Assembly (NCBI RefSeq): GCF_900115125.1
Contig: NZ_FOVJ01000001.1
Coordinates: 1,025,852-1,089,851, forward strand
Direction of reading: 5' to 3'
Length of the DNA: 64,000 nucleotides
Source of the DNA: Nitrosospira briensis
Lineage (GTDB): Bacteria; Pseudomonadota; Gammaproteobacteria; Burkholderiales; Nitrosomonadaceae
Shown here: positions 23,216-33,712 of the stretch, piece by piece
Layout of the letters: each line of letters opens with the position of its first letter
Position numbering within the stretch: position 1 is the stretch's first letter
Made by a program: the position numbers and the translations under genes
Notes under the pieces: model-generated
The model's database searches: none
Told to the model about the DNA's origin: nothing
What the model saw: the letters and a program-made list of their open reading frames with translations, nothing else

Positions 23216-24577
23216 TTAACTCCCCCACTTTCTAAACGGTACGGCAAATCTGAGTGGGATCGCCACATTGATAAAATAATCAGGAGAATGTTTTGTTAAG
23301 CCAATACCGGCTGTCGCCGAGAAAAATAACGACTTGCCAATAATGGACGAAGCACCGAATGTAAATATACTGCTGATCGTATCGGTCCCAGGGATTGAGC
23401 TGTTAAATACTCTTGTATTACCTATATAACTTTGCTGAATACCCAGGCTTAATGAAGTTTGTGGGCTTGCAGCAAGCGTGGCGCCCAATGTTAATCCATA
23501 CACATCCCCTGGCTCGATCCCGTCTTTTTTAAAAGTTTTCCTGTAACTCACTGTGCTCGTAAAAGCTAATGGGTCCTGACGCTTGAGTGCGGTTGCTGAA
23601 AAAATCAACTCGTTGAAACTGGGTAGCGTAGCCAGGCCACTGGTAGGCGCAGCCAAGCCAGCTGCTGAAGTAGTATTAAACGTTTGTTGTTTGCCGGTAT
23701 CTGTATCCCAGGTTATCCTGCCAACGATATCCGGCAGCCAGGCGCTTTCTCGCAGCAAAGTCTTTGCAAGGCCGACACGAATATCGCCAAACATAACAGT
23801 GGTATTTTCCGTTTCCCGATTAATAATTCCTATAACATTCGATGCATTGATCACCCCGGCTGGTATGCTGAGTTCTGCCTGAGTTCCGAAAGGCAGGCCG
23901 AACCTGGAAAAAATACCAACCTCGAAATGGTTACGGCGATTTTGAGTTTCGGCAACAGCACCTATGTTGCCCTCTGCATCCCTGAGCAAGACTGACCCTT
24001 CATTATTAATACGGGCATAACTTACATAGGGTTGAATTTCTGCCAATCCAAATGGCAACAGCAATGCGCCTGTCTGGACCAATGTGCGTTCGAGCGCTCT
24101 TTCTGCCGCCTCCTCATCTACTTCAAAAGTCCCGGGGCCGGTTGTGCTTTGCGCTACCGCAGCGGGAGGTGTTTGTGTGGTGGCGCCATTTCCGGCAGGT
24201 TGCTGGAAAGGTGGATCGGCAGCCGTTTTGGTCGGCGACACAGCCGGGGGTTGGTCGGCAACGGTTTTGGCTGGTGGCAAAGCTGGGGATTGGTCTGTAC
24301 CGGCGCTGGCCGGTGGCGCTGCGGGAGGTTGAGCAGCCCTTGTAGACTCAGAAACCTTCGGCATGCCGCCTACACGGTGTTCGAGTTGCTGCACCCGGCG
24401 TTGAAGATCTGAAATTACCTGATCGCGCTCCTGGAGTTTTGTCATCAGTTGATCGACCAGGGCGGCTTCCGTTACCTGCTGCGCCCGGATACTGGAGGGA
24501 ATGACAAGAAAAAGACTGGCACTTATTAATAAAATTTCTTTAATCCGATTCCTTTTCGATCCATCTATTCTTCTCAT
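23216..24577 (-). CDS. FapF-like outer-membrane beta-barrel with N-terminal coiled coil
   Basis: The 453-residue protein has a signal peptide (to about residue 32), a heptad coiled coil (DQLMTKLQERDQVISDLQRR, residues 41-70), a Pro/Ala-rich linker of about 80 residues with near-repeats of PPAKTVADQPPA, a helix (VDEEAAERALERTLVQTG) leading into ALLLPFGLAEIQPYVSY, and a C-terminal beta-rich domain ending with an aromatic-containing strand. This is the domain order of FapF, the channel that secretes functional amyloid in Pseudomonas, including the helical plug before the barrel. It is followed upstream by an exported C39 peptidase, as FapF is accompanied by FapD. Assignment is by architecture. 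Confidence 0.7.
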   Translation of the reverse strand: MRRIDGSKRNRIKEILLISASLFLVIPSSIRAQQVTEAALVDQLMTKLQERDQVISDLQRRVQQLEHRVGGMPKVSESTRAAQPPAAPPASAGTDQSPALPPAKTVADQPPAVSPTKTAADPPFQQPAGNGATTQTPPAAVAQSTTGPGTFEVDEEAAERALERTLVQTGALLLPFGLAEIQPYVSYARINNEGSVLLRDAEGNIGAVAETQNRRNHFEVGIFSRFGLPFGTQAELSIPAGVINASNVIGIINRETENTTVMFGDIRVGLAKTLLRESAWLPDIVGRITWDTDTGKQQTFNTTSAAGLAAPTSGLATLPSFNELIFSATALKRQDPLAFTSTVSYRKTFKKDGIEPGDVYGLTLGATLAASPQTSLSLGIQQSYIGNTRVFNSSIPGTDTISSIFTFGASSIIGKSLFFSATAGIGLTKHSPDYFINVAIPLRFAVPFRKWGS

Positions 24578-25002
24578 TTCCCGTCTTCCAGAGCACCGCA
24601 GGCGCAGAAGCTTGGGCCAGAAATTAAAAGCTGTCGAGGTGTCACGTCAGCGTCATATGACCGTGACGTAGAAATATCGTGCTCTACGCTTATTATTTCA
24701 CTGGAGAAACTCATTGCGGAGGCCGGAAAAGAAGCGAAGCGGTGCGCAGCGACGCGGCAGTGGCTCCGGTGGCATGACGTAAACATTCGTCGAAACCTTC
24801 AGACGGGATTATGTTTATGTACACGATCGTCCTATGCAATAGGTATGACAGCTTGACCAATGGTTCGAGGATTACAATAACCGTACTCATGCGGAGCTCA
24901 AGATGAAGCCACAGAGAAAACCCATTGGCAGAACTGCGATGACGTAAGCTCTCACTGTCAATTCAATTTCTCCAGCCAATTTGAAATCGGGATTCTCACA
25001 AT
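24578..25002. other. Intergenic stretch holding a transposase relic
   Basis: No complete gene. See the relic at 24855-24947. The stretch separates the C39 peptidase gene from the barrel gene. Confidence 0.5.
24855..24947 (+). pseudogene. Relic of an IS3-type transposase C-terminus
   Basis: DQWFEDYNNRTHAELKMKP in frame, ending at a TAA, resembles the end of the integrase-core domain of IS3-group OrfB proteins (WFEDYN..HPHSxL). Only about 30 codons remain. It shows past insertion activity inside the Fap-like locus. Confidence 0.45.
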
Positions 25003-25638
25003 TTACCGAAACATAACAAATTCATGTGCTTTTGGTTCAAGCTGATTAGGAGTTGAAACACCATCCGTCCGGGCGACCACAAATCCAACTCTCCCGATTT
25101 GCGGAAAATCTATCCACGCATTTTCGAATTGCTCGATCAGCAATGTACGGTTACCCCATGCTGGATCGGCGAGTAATACACGGTTACCTTTTATTCCGCG
25201 AAAAATGACAAAATGGTTATATCCCAACAGATTGACAGGGATAATAATAGGTGCTTTCTTTATCAAGCTATCAAGCGTGAGCTTGCCATAGCCGATTCCT
25301 TCGTAGCCGCGTCCATCTGCATAGCGTTTTAAATCAAGTAAGGAAAACCCCTGGCGAATATTAACCAGTACAGGATTCTTTATGTATTCTTCCCTTCCCA
25401 TGAGGGACGTGGCTACCTGTTTCTCGGTGACCATATCCTGATGCTGGAAGTTTAACAAAGTCGTTAACGCAGCGGCCCCGCAGCTGAGATCCCACTGCTG
25501 TATCACCACATTTTCCCGTCGCATTTCAAGAAGAGATTTAACTATTCTCGCATGTGCCAGGTTCGCAACACCTATGGCCAGAGTAGCAATACAGATTAAT
25601 TTCAGGACTCCAGGATAAATGGCCCGGCACCGTTGCAT
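25003..25638 (-). CDS. Exported C39-family cysteine peptidase, FapD-like
   Basis: The 211-residue protein has a signal peptide (about residues 1-30, ending LAHA) then a C39 fold: oxyanion Gln48 and catalytic Cys53 in QQWDLSCGAAALTTLL, His142 in LGYNHFVIF and Asp158 in VLLADPAWG. Classical C39 domains sit on ABC exporters and cut double-glycine leaders in the cytoplasm; here the domain is alone and exported, as in FapD of the Fap amyloid system. It lies 77 bp downstream of the small secreted protein gene A1 on the same strand and is read toward the FapF-like gene. Likely targets are the TAG leaders of the adjacent small proteins. Confidence 0.8.
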   Translation of the reverse strand: MQRCRAIYPGVLKLICIATLAIGVANLAHARIVKSLLEMRRENVVIQQWDLSCGAAALTTLLNFQHQDMVTEKQVATSLMGREEYIKNPVLVNIRQGFSLLDLKRYADGRGYEGIGYGKLTLDSLIKKAPIIIPVNLLGYNHFVIFRGIKGNRVLLADPAWGNRTLLIEQFENAWIDFPQIGRVGFVVARTDGVSTPNQLEPKAHEFVMFR

Positions 25639-25715
25639 ACGGCCCCTCCCCTTCTTCTGGTTAACCTTTGGTATTTCTGGAAAGACTATATGGATCTTTG
25701 CAGTTCTACTACTCG

Positions 25716-26144
25716 CTACCTCAAGGGAATGTCAACCGCGATAATCGTTGTAACTCCATGCGACGAAGAAAACCACAGGCGATCATTATCCTTAATTATG
25801 CTATTTGCAATCACTATGTCCCCCTCGGCATAATACGCAGTCTCAACACTGGTATCGCTGCCTGAGCCGCAACAGGCGTACGCATCGGCAAAACCTAATC
25901 CTATATCGACAATGTCTTTAGGTGTGCCGATGACGTTCGTTGAGGTGCTCGTATGAGTGTGTGTGTTGGAGCCCTCTGCAGTAGCGAAAGCGCCCATCCC
26001 AACGGCGACGGTGCCCGCCGTGACAGTATCCATTTGCATTCCTGTCAGTCTCATCGGCTCCGCAGCCCATAAGACTGCTGATTTCATCAGGACGGCGAAG
26101 ACTACGGCGCAAGGCGCCAGAGGTGAAAGTAAAATTGTTTTCAT
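25716..26144 (-). CDS. Small secreted protein with TAG leader (family A, copy 1)
   Basis: The 142-residue protein has a Sec signal peptide (about 1-28), then a short leader RLTGMQMDTVTAG whose TAG ends at residue 44, then a Thr/Ser/Gly/Val-rich, beta-prone body with an ACCGSGSDT cysteine pair. The leader resembles the bacteriocin-type double-glycine leader but lies after the signal peptide, so cleavage would be periplasmic. It is homologous along its length to the protein at 28133. Gene order on the minus strand is B1, A1, C39 peptidase, FapF-like barrel. No named family recognised. Confidence 0.72.
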   Translation of the reverse strand: MKTILLSPLAPCAVVFAVLMKSAVLWAAEPMRLTGMQMDTVTAGTVAVGMGAFATAEGSNTHTHTSTSTNVIGTPKDIVDIGLGFADAYACCGSGSDTSVETAYYAEGDIVIANSIIKDNDRLWFSSSHGVTTIIAVDIPLR

Positions 26145-26361
26145 AATCCCGCTCTTGCCCCTGGTCAGTTGATGTTATGTAAGTGCGTAGCCACGTAATG
26201 CAAGTAATTAGTGAGTGCCTCCGCAAAAAGGGCTTGACGATTCCTTTAGCGCTACTGCAGTTCTTCACGTCGCGTTTAATTACGCTAGACCACGCCGCTG
26301 TCGGCCTTTCCTAGCAGCCCCAAGCACAACAACGTCTGATTACTGTCCGTAATTAACTTGA

Positions 26362-26703
26362 TTAATCCAATAAATGTCTCAATAAGTCTGTCGGGTCAAA
26401 TCTTGTGTTATTAAGAAAGGGAAAGACCCCGACAGCGGCAAAAACACTGCCCGGGTTACAACAGGCGGCTGCCATCACAGTTTCCGGATTGGGGGTTATC
26501 GAAAAATCGATGCTTCTCGAATAGCTGGATCCGGTGCCAAACGCGTAGGCGACAAGCGTCAGATTGCCCGCGGTAATATTATCCATTTGCGGTGCTGTCA
26601 ATTTCGTTGGCTCCGACTGCTTCATGGCTGTGGGTTCTGCCTTAGCGACGGAAGTGATCGCAGCAAAGGCAAGAACTGAATATACGAGAGAGATCATTCT
26701 CAT
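26362..26703 (-). CDS. Small secreted protein with TAG leader (family B, copy 1)
   Basis: Starting at the ATG at 26703 behind GGAG, the 113-residue protein has a signal peptide ending SVAKA, then KLTAPQMDNITAG (TAG ends at residue 46), then a short beta-prone body containing a CC pair (AACCNPGS). It is paralogous to the protein at 28619 up to about residue 85; the C-terminal end differs (here VFPFLNNTRFDPTDLLRHLL), suggesting recent divergence or a shifted end. It is first in the minus-strand group leading to the C39 peptidase. Confidence 0.7.
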   Translation of the reverse strand: MRMISLVYSVLAFAAITSVAKAEPTAMKQSEPTKLTAPQMDNITAGNLTLVAYAFGTGSSYSRSIDFSITPNPETVMAAACCNPGSVFAAVGVFPFLNNTRFDPTDLLRHLLD

Positions 26704-27153
26704 CACGTTTTTCTCCTGGAATCGTAGAGTTAAAGTAGGTAACACCGCTCTTTCTTCCCAATGCGCTGGAATTTCCCGTATTTTGCTGTTGCCATTGTTT
26801 CACGCAAAATAGAGTAGCGAATCGATACTAATGCATGGTCTTCCCTTTGAAGATACCCTTTTAGTTGTATATGACCTACTACTTTCAGATGAGAAAAGGT
26901 CGATTCACGACGCGACACTTCAAAAGACCTGCATGAAAGAGCCGTGTATTGAATCGCCTGAATTTTGGGCAGGCTCAACGTCCAGGAAATTGAAGCCTAA
27001 AAAATCAAACAAGTTTCGCCGGGGTAGACGAGCACCCGGGCGTATTTGTGCTCAAACACCGGTCACGCCTCTGTAAGCAACAAGCAACGACAGGAAGCAA
27101 TGTTCGCGGGTACAGTCAAGTGATGTCGGAGGACCCTGATAGGAGGCTCGGAC
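26704..27153. other. Upstream block duplicated at 28940-29316
   Basis: Long stretches match the block right of 28940: TTTTAGTTGTATATGA, then ATCGCCTGAATTT, GGCTCAA, CGTCC, and AAAAAATCAAACAA in the same order and spacing. It separates the divergent B and C genes, so it holds both promoters. No gene seen. Confidence 0.55.
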
Positions 27154-27267
27154 ATGAAAGTTCAGTGCTGCCCGGTTGCCGGCAACGAAAGTTGGCTCGT
27201 CAAGTGCCCCGCCAAGTGGGGCTTGGGCGATCAATCCTTCACTAAAGGAGTAGCAAGGAAGCGTTAG
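27154..27267 (+). CDS. Possible 37-residue peptide, uncertain
   Basis: An ATG behind AGGAGG (8-base spacing) opens MKVQCCPVAGNESWLVKCPA and ends at a TAG after VARKR. Three cysteines in 37 residues are unusual. The 3' part falls within the duplicated upstream region of gene C, but the start is not conserved at the second copy, which weakens the case. Confidence 0.25.
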   Translation: MKVQCCPVAGNESWLVKCPAKWGLGDQSFTKGVARKR

Positions 27268-27469
27268 GGTATCCCCCAATACTCTTTTTGGCGTATTGAT
27301 AATAACCTGAAGTTGAATGAACGATTTGCGGATTGCCGGTATTGCGCGATACGGACATAGTTTGCCTCAACCGGCCAAACCAAATCCATGGGCACGTACT
27401 CTCGAGCATTGGCCGGCCTCTCGAGGCAAGTGTGCCCTTTAGTACTACCTTACTTCAGGAGAAAACATC

Positions 27470-27811
27470 ATGAACGCAAAAATGACCTCTTTCTTTGCTG
27501 GTATTGCTTTACTCTCCAGTATGGGCATTGCCAATGCTGAAGAACGGCTAACCACGGCTGCCATGGATGGTGTCACGGCCGGCTGGTACGACGTTTCTTT
27601 CACCAAATATATTAATACCAACGTAAACGCCTACCTTGACGTGTACAAGGATGTTAATTCGGACGTATACGTCGATGGAAAGCTCGCGGACGCAGAGGCT
27701 GCTGCTTCCTGCTCGGCGTACGACTGCTTGACCGAAACTCTCACCGTTACCAACACAAGCTCTTACGGACCGACGACTTCCTATAGCCAAAGCCTCTCCG
27801 CTACCAACTAG
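27470..27811 (+). CDS. Small secreted protein with TAG leader (family C, copy 1)
   Basis: The 113-residue protein follows AGGAG. It has a signal peptide (to about residue 23, ending GIANA), then ERLTTAAMDGVTAG (TAG ends at residue 38) and a beta-prone body with repeated Tyr/Asn/Val/Asp (YINTNVNAYLDVYKDVNSDV) and two cysteines in SCSAYDC. The body is of the alternating polar/hydrophobic kind seen in amyloid or beta-solenoid subunits. It is divergent from gene B1. The copy at 29767 differs by only three residues (SSYGPTT here, GYYGPST there). Confidence 0.75.
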   Translation: MNAKMTSFFAGIALLSSMGIANAEERLTTAAMDGVTAGWYDVSFTKYINTNVNAYLDVYKDVNSDVYVDGKLADAEAAASCSAYDCLTETLTVTNTSSYGPTTSYSQSLSATN

Positions 27812-27855
27812 AATTGTTGAAGCAGTAGTGACTCAAGGCGGGTTGGCGAAGATTC

Positions 27856-27887
27856 AGTAAGCCCCATGCCTCGCCATGGGGCTTACT
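27856..27887 (+). terminator. Hairpin after gene C1
   Basis: AGTAAGCCCCATG and CATGGGGCTTACT pair as a 13-bp stem with a six-base loop, 44 bp after the stop codon. No strong T-run follows. Confidence 0.6.
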
Positions 27888-28005
27888 TCACGCCAGTCAG
27901 TATAAGGATGAAAGCTGGATTGGCGAATCCGAACCCGCCTTTTGCGGATGGCCAGAACCATACTGCCGCGATGCGCGATTGCGCGCCGCATCATTCACGC
28001 AACTG

Positions 28006-28130
28006 TGAGATCCAAGGAAAGCTGCCAGGTACGATGACCTTACGCTTCATCATAGTTTTTCTGATATGAACCTTTATAATGCTCTCCTGCATTCAGCATT
28101 CATAAGCAGTTATCTTGTTTGATTTACTCC
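28006..28130 (-). pseudogene. Remnant of the 3' end of a LuxR-type gene
   Basis: This stretch matches 30644-30770, the last part of the intact LuxR-family gene, with shared runs such as GAGATCCAAGGAAAGC and TGCTCTCCTGCATTC. About 125 bp remain, with substitutions and a 2-bp length change. It lies at the junction of the duplicated modules and shows that the duplicated unit once included part of the regulator. Confidence 0.8.
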
Positions 28131-28132
28131 AC

Positions 28133-28561
28133 CTACTGGGAAGGAACGTCCACCGCGATGACTGTTGTAACTCCATAGGAGAAAGAAAACAGCGGAGTGC
28201 TGGCATCATTAACAGTGCTATGTGCAATGACTTTGTCCCCCTCAGCATAATATGCAGTCTGAACGTCGGTGTAAGTGCCAGAGCCGCAACAGGCGACCGC
28301 CTCCCCGAAACCTAGCCCTATATCAACAGTGCCTGTAGGCGTGCTGAAAGCGCTTGTTGAGGTGCTGCTATAAGTGTATGCACTGGAGCCGTCGGCAGTG
28401 GCCAAAGCGCTAACTCCTACGGCGACGGTGCCAGCTGTCACGGCATCCATCTGCGCGCCCGTCAGTCTCGCCGGTTCCCCAGCCCATGCGACTACCGACT
28501 CCATCAGAACCACGAAGACCACGGCCCCAAGCGCTAGAGGTGAAAGTAAAGTGATTCTCAT
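28133..28561 (-). CDS. Small secreted protein with TAG leader (family A, copy 2)
   Basis: The ATG at 28561 follows AGGAG. The protein has a signal peptide (about 1-28), RLTGAQMDAVTAG (TAG ends at residue 44), and a Thr/Ser/Gly/Tyr-rich body with an ACCGSGTYT pair. It matches A1 over its whole 142 residues, including the end (TTVIAVDVPSQ against TTIIAVDIPLR). It is downstream of B2 with a 57-bp gap. Confidence 0.72.
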   Translation of the reverse strand: MRITLLSPLALGAVVFVVLMESVVAWAGEPARLTGAQMDAVTAGTVAVGVSALATADGSSAYTYSSTSTSAFSTPTGTVDIGLGFGEAVACCGSGTYTDVQTAYYAEGDKVIAHSTVNDASTPLFSFSYGVTTVIAVDVPSQ

Positions 28562-28618
28562 AATTTTGCTCCTACTCTCTCGATTAGCGTACAGAGTCGG
28601 CTTACGCCCGCAATTAAC

Positions 28619-28939
28619 TTAATTAATTTGATATATGATGGGATCTCTGGGGATGACTACCACATTGGTATAAGTGGTGTCGGCACCACAACAGTCTACC
28701 GTTATCGAAGTCTCGTCACTGGGGGTTATCGAAAAATCAGCGGCTCTGGAATAGATTGATTCAGTACCGGTACCGGACGCGTAAGTAGTAACCGTTACGC
28801 TGCCCGCAGTGATGTTATCCATCTCTGGTGCTGCCAATCTCATTGGCTCTGGCTGCTTCATGGTTGTCGGTTCTGCCTGAGCGACCGAAGCCATCGCAGC
28901 AAAGGCGAAGGCTGAACATGCGAGAGAGATTATTTTCAT
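28619..28939 (-). CDS. Small secreted protein with TAG leader (family B, copy 2)
   Basis: The 106-residue protein has a signal peptide ending SVAQA, MRLAAPEMDNITAG (TAG ends at residue 46) and a short beta-prone body with a CC pair (VDCCGADTTY). Homologous to B1 in the first two thirds. GGAG lies ten bases upstream of the ATG. It starts the minus-strand B2-A2 pair; this pair has no C39 gene of its own. Confidence 0.7.
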   Translation of the reverse strand: MKIISLACSAFAFAAMASVAQAEPTTMKQPEPMRLAAPEMDNITAGSVTVTTYASGTGTESIYSRAADFSITPSDETSITVDCCGADTTYTNVVVIPRDPIIYQIN

Positions 28940-29540
28940 CTCGGTTTGTCTCCTAAAAATGTAGAGTTAAAATAAAGTTGACTGCCTCTTGCTTCTCGAT
29001 GCGCCAGGAATTTCTCTCATTTTGCTGTTTCCCCGTTTCGCGCAAGCTTGCACAGAGCAGCAAACCGATATTAGCGCGCCATCTTCATTTTGTAGATTCT
29101 CTTTTAGTTGTATATGAGCTACTGCTTTTAGATTGAGAAGGGGGCCAATTGACGATGGATCGCCATTTAAGAGCAAATATCTCGAAATCGCCTGAATTTA
29201 GAGAAGGCTCAAACGTCCCGGAATTAAAACATAAAAAATCAAACAATTTTCTCCGAGATAGACAAGTGCCCGTGCACACCCGCGCTCAACACTGGATCAC
29301 GCGTTGTAAGCGGCTAGCAACAACGCGGTTGTGTAAGTCTGCTTATCCTTGAGATTGCCTGCCCGTAAAAGTGGAAGGCACATTGCAAAGCGAGGTCACA
29401 GTTTTACTATGCAGCGACACGCTCTCGTGCGCGGGGAATGCAGGGATCTCATCAACCAGCTTTACGTGGACATCAGAGTTTATCTGGGGCGAAGACAACT
29501 GTGCCCCGCTCGGCGCGATTGAAGGAATCCATCATCCACC
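28940..29540. other. Upstream block of module 2
   Basis: Left part (to about 29316) is paralogous to 26704-27060. The rest, to 29540, is unlike module 1 and has no recognisable gene. Confidence 0.5.
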
Positions 29541-29766
29541 AAAGGAGTAGCAAGGAAGCGTTAGGGTATCCCCCAATACTCTTTTTGGCGTATTGATAAT
29601 AACCTGAAGTTGAATGAACGATTTGCGGATTGCCGGTATTGCGCGATACGGACATAGTTTGCCTCAACCGGCCAAACCAAATCCATGGGCACGTACTCTC
29701 GAGCATTGGCCGGCCTCTCGAGGCAAGTGTGCCCTTTAGTACTACCTTACTTCAGGAGAAAACATC

Positions 29767-30108
29767 ATGAACGCAAAAATGACCTCTTTCTTTGCTGGTA
29801 TTGCTTTACTCTCCAGTATGGGCATTGCCAATGCTGAAGAACGGCTAACCACGGCTGCCATGGATGGTGTCACGGCCGGCTGGTACGACGTTTCTTTCAC
29901 CAAATATATTAATACCAACGTAAACGCCTACCTTGACGTGTACAAGGATGTTAATTCGGACGTATACGTCGATGGAAAGCTCGCGGACGCAGAGGCTGCT
30001 GCTTCCTGCTCGGCGTACGACTGCTTGACCGAAACTCTCACCGTTACCAACACAGGATATTACGGACCCTCGACTTCCTATAGCCAAAGCCTCTCCGCTA
30101 CCAACTAG
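29767..30108 (+). CDS. Small secreted protein with TAG leader (family C, copy 2)
   Basis: Same length, signal peptide, leader and cysteine pattern as C1 (27470), with substitutions only near the end (NTGYYGPST in place of NTSSYGPTT). Both copies have an intact ribosome site and frame, so both are likely expressed. Function is inferred from the locus: a substrate of the exported C39 peptidase and the FapF-like barrel. Confidence 0.75.
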   Translation: MNAKMTSFFAGIALLSSMGIANAEERLTTAAMDGVTAGWYDVSFTKYINTNVNAYLDVYKDVNSDVYVDGKLADAEAAASCSAYDCLTETLTVTNTGYYGPSTSYSQSLSATN

Positions 30109-30194
30109 AAAGTCGTGAAAAAATCGACGCGCCTTTTGCCGTAGAACGATTATTGTTGAAGCAGTAGTGACTCAAGGCGGGTTGGCGAAGATTC

Positions 30195-30226
30195 AGTAAG
30201 CCCCATGCCTAGGCATGGGGCTTACT
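30195..30226 (+). terminator. Hairpin after gene C2
   Basis: A perfect 32-bp palindrome: AGTAAGCCCCATGCC, TA, GGCATGGGGCTTACT. It is the counterpart of 27856-27887 with a changed loop that extends the pairing. Confidence 0.65.
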
Positions 30227-30614
30227 TCACGCCAGTCAGTATAAGGATGAAAGCTGGATTGGCGAATCTGAACCCGCCTTCTCCGGATGGCCAGAACCAT
30301 ACTGCCGCGATGCGCGATGCGTGCCGCATCATTCGCGCAGCTGTGCAAATTGCCGGTGAAAGGTTGCCGCCTTAAGAAAAAGTACAGAGCAAACGAACAC
30401 CGAGCAAAATGAGGTAAAGCAAAGTGCCGACGGGATCAGAATTGCTTCGACGATTCCCTCACCCGCGGCACCGAATTAAAGCTAAAGCCGGCGTTGATAT
30501 TTAATGTTCCAGATAAGGAAGCGCAAGGCACTGGCAGGCAGCAGCGACATATGCGCTTCCATATCTCCTCCTCGTTGCTTTTCTAATCCCAGCCCGTACG
30601 CAAACCAAGTGTAA
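30227..30614. other. Intergenic stretch
   Basis: The left third is the tail of the long repeat. No gene seen in the rest. Confidence 0.5.
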
Positions 30615-31508
30615 TCAATATTCGGCTTTCCCGTCCGCTATTTGAGATCCAAGGAAAGCAGCGTGAGTGCGATTGATGGCCTTAAGCTTTGTCATTATTT
30701 TTCTGGTATGAACCTTTACAGTGCTCTCCTGCATTCCGAGCTCATAAGCAATAATTTTATTTGATTTACCCCGGCGCACAAGCTGGAACACCTCCAGTTC
30801 TCTCGACGTAAGGGTCTGCAAGACAGGTGGGTCAACCTTGGCGCCGTTCGGGCGCCCCTCCTCTCTAAGCCGTGAGGTTTTTTCAGTGATCTCGAGAAGA
30901 GCGTTATGCGGAATAAATGCACCGCCCTCCATGACGAGCCGAAGTGACTGGATCACCGTGGACGGATTGAAATCCGATGAGATGTAGCCGCGAGCCCCGA
31001 TCAGAATGGCATCCAGAATTTCGCCAAGCTCATCGTGGTCGGAAAGGAATACAAAGGGCAGGTCCGGAAGCTCAAGCTTTAGCCGTAGAATTCCGTTAGA
31101 AATATGATTCTCGCTGATGTGCTCTGAACCAAGGTTAAAGACGACCATTTCCACGTTGCATGGACGCTCCAGATACCCGGCCACGAACTCATCAATGCTC
31201 GAATAGGGCATGATAACGAAATCATCGGAAAGTGTTGTTAACAGATGTGAGATGGATAGCCGTGTAAGGGGCCGTGAATCAATCAGTGCAAGTCTTGTCT
31301 TAGTAACTTCTTCTTCCATTGCGCTTCCGTGAACAGGATGAGCGCTTTTTGGTGCCACCAACTGCTTATCAGCCGGGTGTCCCTCGGCGCTATCTTTCCA
31401 ATTACCATCGCTGATCTCCTGGCTATACAGTGCCAGCCCGATTCCTTTGTCAATCCCACCTATCTCACACTCAAGCTCTGCTATGCGGCCAGTTAGTGCG
31501 TTTATCAT
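30615..31508 (-). CDS. LuxR-family response-regulator-like protein with degenerate receiver
   Basis: From the ATG at 31508, behind GGGGAGG, the 297-residue protein has an N-terminal 60-residue extension, a receiver-like domain (about 70-185) beginning TRLALIDSRPLTRLSISHLL, and a C-terminal LuxR HTH (LTSRELEVFQLVRRGKSNKI, ESTVKVHTRKIMTKL). The usual phospho-acceptor Asp at the end of strand 3 is Asn125 (MVVFNLGSE), so phosphorylation at that site is not expected. It lies beside the TAG-leader genes and a piece of it was duplicated with them, so it is the likely regulator of the locus. Confidence 0.82.
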   Translation of the reverse strand: MINALTGRIAELECEIGGIDKGIGLALYSQEISDGNWKDSAEGHPADKQLVAPKSAHPVHGSAMEEEVTKTRLALIDSRPLTRLSISHLLTTLSDDFVIMPYSSIDEFVAGYLERPCNVEMVVFNLGSEHISENHISNGILRLKLELPDLPFVFLSDHDELGEILDAILIGARGYISSDFNPSTVIQSLRLVMEGGAFIPHNALLEITEKTSRLREEGRPNGAKVDPPVLQTLTSRELEVFQLVRRGKSNKIIAYELGMQESTVKVHTRKIMTKLKAINRTHAAFLGSQIADGKAEY

Positions 31509-32427: not shown

Positions 32428-33712
32428 ATGCCCAAGCTCACTAAATCCGTTGTCGATGCAATTCCCCATCCCGAAACCGGTCAGACCTTTCACCGCGATT
32501 CAGACATTAAAGGCTTTGGCCTTCGTGTAGGTACCGGCAGCAAAGTCTATATTGCCGAAGGCAAGGTCAACAGTAAGACCGTGCGAGTCAGTATTGGTCA
32601 TCACGGTATCTTTACCGCCGAGCAAGCCCGACAGGAAGCCAAAAACATCCTTGGCATGATTGCACGCGGCATTAATCCCAATGATGTCACCAAAACCAAA
32701 CGTGCGTTAAGCGTAACTATGTGGGAGGCATTCGATGCCTACCTTAAGGCACGCGGCAGTTTGAAGCCGCGCACGGTGTACGACTATAAGCGTTTGATGA
32801 AAACCTATCTTGCCGACTGGCAAAATAAACCTTGTGGAAATCACCAAGGATCAGATCGAGTGCAAGCATAGGGAAATTGGGGAGCGCAGCCCTGCGCAAG
32901 CAAACCTCACCATGCGCTTCGTGCGAGCCCTTTTAAACTTCGCCATAGGCAAGTACGAAGATTCAACAGGCAATCCCATCATTGCCAACAACCCCACCAA
33001 GCGACTTTCGCAAACACGCTCCTGGTATCGGGTAGATAGGCGTAATACCGTCATTAAAGCCCATGACCTACCCCAATGGTTCAAAGCGGTAAACAACCTC
33101 AGGGATGACGTTCTAGGCCGCAACAGAGTCAGGGATTATCTGCTACTACTACTCTTTACCGGTTTACGACGTGAAGAGGGGCTCAGCCTCACTTGGGAAC
33201 AAGTCGATTTGAAGGCAAAGACACTTACAATTCCAGACCCCAAGAACCGGCTGCCGCATGTATTGCCCTTGAGCGATTTTCTGCATGATTTGCTCATGCA
33301 GCGACACAAGGAAAGAACGGATAGCCCTTTCGTGTTTCCGGGTAGTGGTGTGAAAGGTTATCTCAACGAGCCGAAAAAGCAGATGCAAAAGGTTATCGAG
33401 GAATCGAATGTAGCGTTCACGCTGCACGATCTGCGCCGCACCTTCATCACGGTAGCAGAAAGCCTCGATATCTCAGCTTATGCCCTCAAGCGCTTGGCAA
33501 ACCACAAAATGACAAACGATGTGACAGCAGGCTACATCATTAGCGATGTGGAGCGGCTAAGGGAGCCCATGCAAAGGATCACTAATTTCCTGCTTGAGAG
33601 TATGCATTCCGGTTCAAATCCCCTTACCGTTACAGATACCGTTACTGTTACCGATACCGTAACAGATACGGTTACTGATGCCGATACAGTACGGGTAGGG
33701 AAACACGCATGA
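32428..33712 (+). pseudogene. Tyrosine integrase, frameshifted
   Basis: The N-terminal part (DUF4102-like: LTKSVVDAIPHPETGQTF, GFGLRVGTGSKVYIAEGK) runs in one frame to a stop at 32871. The rest (LVEITKDQIECKHREIGE onward) is in the +1 frame from about 32835. One missing base at CAAAATAAACCTTG would restore YLADWQNKP-LVEITKDQ. Catalytic-domain pieces are present: LLLLFTGLRREEGLSLTWEQ, HDLRRTFITVAE and the end Tyr in AGYI. The C-terminus carries an odd TVTD repeat tail. It adjoins the tRNA-Asn att repeat. Either inactive or rescued by frameshifting. Confidence 0.82.
33626..33691 (+). repeat. Tandem hexamer repeat (ACNGNT) at the integrase 3' end
   Basis: Eleven consecutive six-base units follow the pattern ACCGTT/ACAGAT/ACTGTT/ACCGAT. 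In the integrase frame they encode alternating Thr-Val and Thr-Asp. Related motifs recur within the replication gene at 36583-36793. Confidence 0.75.

Follow-up and report, generated by a model that had tools for sequence, protein, structure and literature searches.

Introduction

Papers of 2017 and 2018 call the target of FapD, the exported C39 peptidase of the Pseudomonas Fap system, unclear or still to be established (PMC5557850, PMC6173800). Cleavage by FapD of FapE, a Fap protein from whose first about 70 residues no peptides were seen (PMC5557850, PMC6173800), was suggested earlier (PMC5557850), and no answer was found in the titles and abstract openings of the later papers listed. The gonococcal nap island, published in 2025, encodes three small peptides with a Gly-Gly (GG) site, for which periplasmic cleavage was proposed (PMC11798529), and is the nearest published system to the locus described here. 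This locus lies in a 64,000-nucleotide stretch of Nitrosospira briensis DNA (contig NZ_FOVJ01000001.1, positions 1,025,852 to 1,089,851), which is called the window below. It encodes a FapF-like outer-membrane barrel, an exported C39 peptidase and six small proteins that carry, behind a signal for the general secretory (Sec) pathway, a leader of double-glycine type ending in Thr-Ala-Gly (TAG).

Leaders of double-glycine type are described for the peptidase-containing ATP-binding cassette (ABC) transporters (PCATs). In PCAT1, the register is L(-12)xxxE(-8)L(-7)xxxxG(-2)G(-1), with a hydrophobic knot at -7 and -12 and specificity likely at -4 (PMC6959990). The groove of LahT150 contacts Val-4, Leu-7, and Leu-12, and 13 leader residues sufficed for this protease (PMC6363468). 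In literature from which subscription papers mostly fell outside, PMC5557850 was the only paper found on periplasmic, stand-alone, exported or secreted C39 peptidases, and the strings MDQVTAG, MDNVTAG, MDAVTAG, MDKVTAG, LDQVTAG, and LDAVTAG were not found.

The TAG leader in the window and in related loci

The original prediction, made from the window alone, had named a FapF-like barrel, an exported C39 peptidase and six small proteins with the leader LT-x3-MD-x-(V/I)TAG, and all of these genes are present (Table 1). Each of the six small open reading frames (ORFs) begins with a hydrophobic, Sec-like signal followed by the leader; the LT is not strict, being LA in one protein, and no other match occurs among the six-frame ORFs of the window. 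At the level of DNA, the pattern MTGGANNNNRTNACNGCNGG, which encodes [ML][DE]x[VIM]TAG with M/L taken as ATG or CTG, has 6 matches in the 3.23-Mb genome, exactly the six window genes, and its reversed control has 0.

The leader is found far beyond this genome. A scan with eight aligned C39 seeds, which contained no leader sequence, gave 117 loci, of which the best 80 were used (seven are copies of seed loci). Their hosts include Nitrosospira, Nitrosomonas, Nitrococcus, Methylobacter, Crenothrix, Thiocapsa, Noviherbaspirillum, Rhodospirillales, Geminicoccaceae, Desulfobacterales, and others. In the six-frame ORFs of these loci, the motif [ML][DEN]x[VIML][TS]A(A)G has 189 matches, 170 of them with a signal-like start, the latter corresponding to 169 ORFs in 61 of the 80 loci, while 40 permuted motifs gave on average 2.4 matches overall and 0.4 (maximum 3) with a signal-like start. 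When the seed copies are excluded, the motif follows a signal-like start in 55 of 73 loci. The TAG-leader observation is thus real and general. Chance occurrence of the motif was considered and ruled out, permuted motifs and reversed patterns being near zero.

Nineteen loci lack the motif. Nine of them carry a close variant of the leader, namely VAAG (L181, L183, L191, L192, L195, and L201, where L numbers denote loci), VAGG (L186), TGG (L194) or VVAG (L204), and in six a contig end lies within 0.6 kb of the C39 gene. In one subgroup (L181, L183, L186, L191, L192, and L195) the VAAG or VAGG leader is borne by one conserved small protein, and the C39 peptidase there has SCAA at the active site, not SCGA.

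Together with the window, 175 distinct leader proteins were collected, after exclusion of one false repeat match in L146. Their bodies have a median length of 76 residues and fall into about 53 BLAST clusters, across which the leader is constant; clustering was done without correction for low complexity or composition, so that a 63-member Ala-rich cluster may be inflated and the figure of 53 is rough. At least two leader proteins are present in 49 of 62 loci (mean 2.8, up to 6 per locus). Between paralogues of the same locus (n = 213 pairs), the median identity is 60% in leader positions -12 to -3, part of which had served as selection motif; the signal (35%) and the body (34%) are less alike. 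Many unrelated small bodies share the leader, which is a portable tag. Furthermore, the Sec proteins next to a distant C39 peptidase in L282 (genome G543) carry LTDWTLDKLTAG and, in one protein of 601 residues, LSDNQLDQMTAG; the leader is therefore not limited to small bodies.

Register of the leader

When the 175 proteins are anchored with M/L at -7 (M 77%, L 23%), the preceding part shows P at -15 (70%), L at -12 (99%), T/S at -11 (76%), and Q/E at -8 (86%; Q 65%, E 21%). Downstream follow D at -6 (99%), V/I at -4 (98%; V 82%, I 16%), and [TS]-A-G, with G at -1 in all. Beyond the putative cleavage site, positions +1 to +10 of the body all stay at or below 0.35 bits. The search motif covered positions -7, -4, and -1 but neither -12 nor -8, so that agreement with the published register is independent at L-12 and Q/E-8. 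By L(-12), E/Q(-8), L/M(-7), a hydrophobic residue at -4 and G(-1), these sequences are leaders of the double-glycine type, and the prediction of such a leader after a Sec signal, beside an exported C39 peptidase in a FapF-type locus, is supported on this ground. True GG endings occur in two clade members, L186 (SVAGG) and L194 (TATGG). By a simple rule for the predicted signal-peptidase (AxA) site, 111 of 173 proteins would be left with 15-17 leader residues, and 172 with no fewer than 15; this rule found no site in 2 of the 175 proteins.

Correspondence between leader and peptidase

The association was also followed in the reverse direction, from leader to neighborhood. A looser DNA pattern gave 39 matches in 28 of 100 genomes of the family sample (reversed control, 13). 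Eleven of these matches lie beside a C39 gene (6 in the window, 2 in genome G018, 2 in G082, and 1 in G075) and 28 elsewhere; a signal-like start was present in 0 of the 25 places inspected among these 28. Since the looser pattern also matched elsewhere, a stricter one approximating L[ST]xx[QE][ML]Dx[VIM][TS]AG was used afterwards; it is conservative, missing TAG loci such as L271 as well as the VAAG loci. It matched 4 of 300 genomes of the order sample (8 places) and 3 of 274 of the class sample (5 places, 3 of them the window's), and as the two samples share three genomes, the window genome being matched in both, 6 of 571 distinct genomes were matched. An exported-type C39 gene is located no more than about 6.5 kb from each place matched by the strict pattern, and the reversed control gave 0. 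The original prediction had named small proteins lying mainly in genomes without C39 and FapF neighbors as the finding that would speak against it, and the strict matches do not show such a distribution. Of the three looser-pattern matches away from a C39 gene that are not among the 25 places inspected, one, in G064, is a signal-bearing leader fragment at a contig end, and the C39 gene of that genome lies at the end of another contig.

A C39 tree of 148 rows was built from the family, order, and class samples and the scan, each row being labeled by the leader type of neighboring signal-bearing ORFs with patterns written after the loci had been read. The labels are TAG (67), RGG (FapE-like, 39), EG (Nap-like, 8), TGQ (FilA-like, 2), and none (32). 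On the 116 labeled rows, only 4 label changes are required (minimum 3), and all 67 TAG rows fall in one 83-row clade, supported by a Shimodaira-Hasegawa-like approximate likelihood ratio test (SH-aLRT) value of 97, together with 15 rows labeled none, 1 EG, and no RGG. Counting none as a state gives 26 changes vs. a shuffled mean of 69.7; the EG label is not clustered on this tree better than shuffled. The tree comes from a quick search, and its branches carry a single support measure. It leaves out L077, L118, and L145 (too short) and L108, L112, L120, L071-L076, and L283 (copies or fragments). Labels were set by hand for L260 and L263 (RGG) and L110 (none), script labels were kept for L114 (RGG, inside the Nap-like group) and L143 (EG, also with a TAG match), and L181, L186, L194, L201, and L204 are unlabeled despite their variant leaders. 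Residues separating TAG from RGG peptidases were listed and support no claim.

Stronger evidence than the tree for a pairing of protease and leader, though from few cases, comes from three genomes with two exported C39 peptidases, each beside its own leader type: G053 (L068 RGG, L072 TAG), G131 (L090 RGG, L108 TAG), and G561 (L257 RGG, L286 TAG). Against a profile of the TAG clade, L072, L108, and L286 give E values of 1e-104 to 8e-74, and L257, L068, and L090 of 4e-43 to 5e-35 (L090 and L286 are not in the tree).

The peptidase and the barrel

The window C39 peptidase exceeds the Pfam threshold for PF03412 (E 1.2e-12, 48.3 bits vs. a cut-off of 22). Among NCBIfam models FilB is the best (E 5.2e-29), its 101.5 bits lying below the cut-off of 475, and the FapD equivalog NF058616 gives E 6.2e-23 with 81.2 bits vs. 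a cut-off of 330. Its nearest named C39 relative, at 87%, is from Nitrosospira sp. Nsp14. Q47, C53, H142, and D158, which we take to be the catalytic set of C39, are invariant in all 65 aligned proteins (64 of 68 C39 references and the window protein), and the catalytic Q, C, H, and D are likewise invariant in the 67 TAG and 38 RGG rows compared. A profile of the 65 proteins matches solved double-glycine proteases (best 6mpz, E 3.4e-9).

The barrel is a FapF-type outer-membrane pore by homology: a profile of 66 proteins (65 of 67 barrel references and the window protein) matches solved FapF (5o65/5o67/5o68) across the barrel with E of about 2e-28. Taken alone, the window barrel reaches E 2.1e-6 and 26.8 bits with the NCBIfam FapF model NF058560 (cut-off 700), and matches FilC weakly (E 0.0047, 16.3 bits vs. 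a cut-off of 630). As the FapD and FapF equivalog cut-offs are missed, the window peptidase and barrel are relatives, not named members, of these families. A FapF-like barrel is present in 74 of the 80 related loci, by a profile built from 8 proteins of which 7 recur among the 80.

Proposed maturation and alternatives

We give a probability of about three in four to a two-step maturation coupled to export. The small protein would first cross the inner membrane by Sec, and signal peptidase I would cut at the AxA site, leaving a leader of typically 15-17 residues of the form x-P-x-x-L(-12)-[TS]-x-x-[QE](-8)-[ML](-7)-D-x-[VI](-4)-[TS]-A(-2)-G(-1), which is of double-glycine type, although Ala is the common residue at -2. 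The exported C39 peptidase would then dock this leader via L-12, M/L-7, and V/I-4 and cut after TAG in the periplasm, and the body would exit through the FapF-like pore. From the sequences, we infer both cleavages, the docking, and the transit. Directly observed are the gene content, the conservation of the leader, the co-occurrence, the correspondence of protease clade and leader type, and the intact catalytic residues, to which homology to solved FapF and to double-glycine protease is added.

Several points weigh against this maturation. Gly at -2, a mark of double-glycine leaders, is replaced by Ala in the 175 proteins (by selection), and 12 of 175 leaders have an extra Ala. A leader protein was not found in four clade loci (L130, L180, L182, and L190). 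The seeds of the scan had been met earlier beside leader proteins or barrels, and the motif and the leader labels were written after inspection of earlier loci. Signal peptides and gene starts were assigned by simple in-house rules. Finally, since operons are inherited whole, the agreement with the tree shows correspondence, not cutting; both it and the co-occurrence could reflect whole-operon inheritance.

Two proposals on the role of the bodies are compatible with two-step maturation. The bodies may be short amyloid fiber subunits like FapB and FapC, which we consider a tentative and rather unlikely role: the homology of the barrel to FapF and N/Q-rich stretches in some bodies (e.g., L286 and L146) speak for it, while none of the profiles built from four Fap-like groups matches the bodies convincingly, no repeat protein is among the genes called in the 20-36 kb region of the window, and the TAG clade has no RGG-labeled row. 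The best body match to these profiles has E 4.5e-4, with a low-complexity profile of four sequences; the best value for shuffled bodies with any of the four profiles is 0.08. An assignment of the bodies to Fap subunits by homology was set aside as unsupported, and the FapB/FapC repeat subunits and FapE that define a Fap amyloid operon were not found among the genes called in this region; an amyloid nature of the bodies is possible.

It is less probable still that the system resembles Nap in function and that the peptides act on membranes or cells. The gonococcal nap island has a C39 peptidase, a FapF-like channel, and small GG peptides (PMC11798529), and several paralogues per locus are usual here, too. 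Nap peptides are described as cationic (PMC11798529), while the six window bodies (60-98 residues, TAG site) are acidic, with net charges between -2 and -7; across 173 bodies the median charge is -2, although 32 of them are at +3 or more.

As an alternative to cleavage, the TAG leader could be an address label that stays on the protein and is bound by the C39 peptidase or the coiled coil of the FapF-like barrel, gathering the substrates at the pore. Binding and cutting are not separable by conservation alone, and in some secretion systems a C39-like domain lacks catalytic activity and is thought to be a substrate chaperone (PMC5557850). The invariance of the catalytic residues in all C39 proteins compared speaks against a mere label, as does the requirement of the FapD active-site Cys for FapC secretion (PMC5557850), and we regard this alternative as improbable. 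A coincidence, in which a recently duplicated, unrelated secreted family happens to lie beside a Fap-like pair whose C39 acts elsewhere, e.g., on the barrel, is very improbable given that the same leader recurs on unrelated bodies across many taxa (61 of 80 loci), even though the six window genes do stem from internal duplication and FapD cleavage of FapF has been considered (PMC5557850).

Organization of the locus

The genes of the locus are listed in Table 1. The six small genes are three pairs that arose by duplication within the locus, in line with the three families originally recognized. Positions 27230-28007 and 29527-30345 are 92.7% identical, which indicates that one family 3 copy is recent; the two minus-strand gene pairs are 73-75% identical. 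None of 16 small proteins tested (6 of the window and 10 hand-chosen relatives) exceeds a curated cut-off of Pfam or NCBIfam; the second window protein entered this search with two residues before its ATG. A Cys pair (CC or C-x4-C) had been noted in the bodies. Two Cys are indeed present in all six window bodies, while Cys occurs in only 42 of the 175 bodies of the class, and the pair was thus rejected as a class hallmark.

Table 1. Genes of the TAG-leader locus in the window.
Feature	Position	Strand	Leader	Remarks
FapF-like outer-membrane barrel	23216..24577	-		N-terminal signal and coiled-coil-like stretch; profile match to solved FapF
Exported C39 cysteine peptidase	25003..25638	-		Sec signal; PF03412 match
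TAG-leader protein, family 1	25716..26144	-	LTGMQMDTVTAG	CC pair
TAG-leader protein, family 2	26362..26703	-	LTAPQMDNITAG	CC pair; ATG at 26703
TAG-leader protein, family 3	27470..27811	+	LTTAAMDGVTAG	C-x4-C pair
TAG-leader protein, family 1 paralogue	28133..28561	-	LTGAQMDAVTAG	
TAG-leader protein, family 2 paralogue	28619..28939	-	LAAPEMDNITAG	
TAG-leader protein, family 3 paralogue	29767..30108	+	LTTAAMDGVTAG	
NarL/LuxR-type regulator	30615..31508	-		PF00196, E 2.8e-17; longer start to 31592 possible

The NarL/LuxR-type gene is a possible regulator of the locus, and a similar gene is present in 22 of the 80 related loci (E<1e-3). An integrase-like gene, named by inspection alone, lies beside the locus across two overlapping frames (32428-33712), and no tRNA was detected between 20 and 40 kb of the window. 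Of 23 genomes sampled from the genus, 2, including that of the window, have a C39 peptidase matching the FilB model, as do 19 of 100 sampled from the family; this patchy presence in the genus may point to mobility of the locus.

Comparison with known systems

Like the PCAT exporters (PCAT1 and LahT), the present system combines a C39 protease with the register L-12, E/Q-8, L/M-7, V/I-4, and G-1. In the PCATs, the protease is cytosolic and fused to the ABC transporter and Gly is found at -2, whereas here protease and substrates each have a Sec signal and -2 is mostly Ala. The putative pilus proteins FilA, FilB, and FilC of NCBIfam are a further point of comparison, FilB being the best C39 model and FilC a weak barrel match, both far below their cut-offs.

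Other exported C39 peptidases also adjoin signal-bearing proteins with sites in the same register: LSDEELGGLRGRY (FapE-like), DSELHEISGKG (FapA-like), AMTDTAMSNATGQDG (FilA-like), and LSDQEMKNTEGA (Nap-like), the names of these neighbors being given by inspection and not by database calls. In Fap-type loci (L244-L263 and L058-L070), Sec proteins carry RG[GRK][FY] sites in the double-glycine register, and those of the FapE-like proteins are candidate FapD sites. In genome G436, there are seven Nap-like C39 matches on several contigs (L264-L269), some beside Sec proteins with EMxxTxG-type leaders.

The double-glycine leader could be a general periplasmic maturation code in diderms, every exported C39 clade (FapD, FilB-like, Nap-like, and TAG-type) reading a Sec-delivered leader in the same register; we hold the chances for and against such a code to be even. 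With equal reserve, the sites listed above would be the points of cleavage, and the signatures at -3/-2/-1 would be RG[GRK] for FapE-like, TGQ for FilA-like, and [EQT]G-x for Nap-like proteins, and [TS]AG here. If the code is general, FapD would be expected to act on the ELxxxRG site of FapE, together with the ELxxISGKG site of the FapA-like protein. The proposed maturation of the TAG-leader proteins, if correct, would join Sec secretion and bacteriocin-type leaders, predict the mature ends of many unannotated secreted proteins of ammonia and methane oxidizers, and point to a short portable tag for the export of small proteins. The loci provide many natural candidate substrates, which share a short, constant leader and come with a matching exported C39 peptidase, so that the question of the FapD target becomes a simple peptide-cleavage test, and related sets in other bacteria suggest substrates of a little-understood class of exported C39 peptidases.

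The small TAG-leader substrates had been predicted as a new class, an idea that is less isolated now: both the nap island (PMC11798529) and the suggested cleavage of FapE by FapD (PMC5557850) precede it. As in Pseudomonas Fap (FapA-F), an exported C39 peptidase adjoins a FapF barrel, and the substrates reach the periplasm by Sec (PMC5557850). Unlike in Fap, the place of the FapB/FapC repeat proteins is taken here by small, varied bodies behind a TAG leader, and the C39 peptidase belongs to a separate clade without the RGG (FapE-like) neighbor label. In Nap, the mature peptides have 16-36 residues, are cationic, and end their leader at a GG site (PMC11798529), a difference taken from the published description; the term "signal peptide" occurs 0 times in the main text (PMC11798529). 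With its C39 peptidase NapP, the FapF-like channel NapF, and the several small leader peptides NapABC, the Neisseria nap island is built from the same set of parts as the locus described here (PMC11798529).

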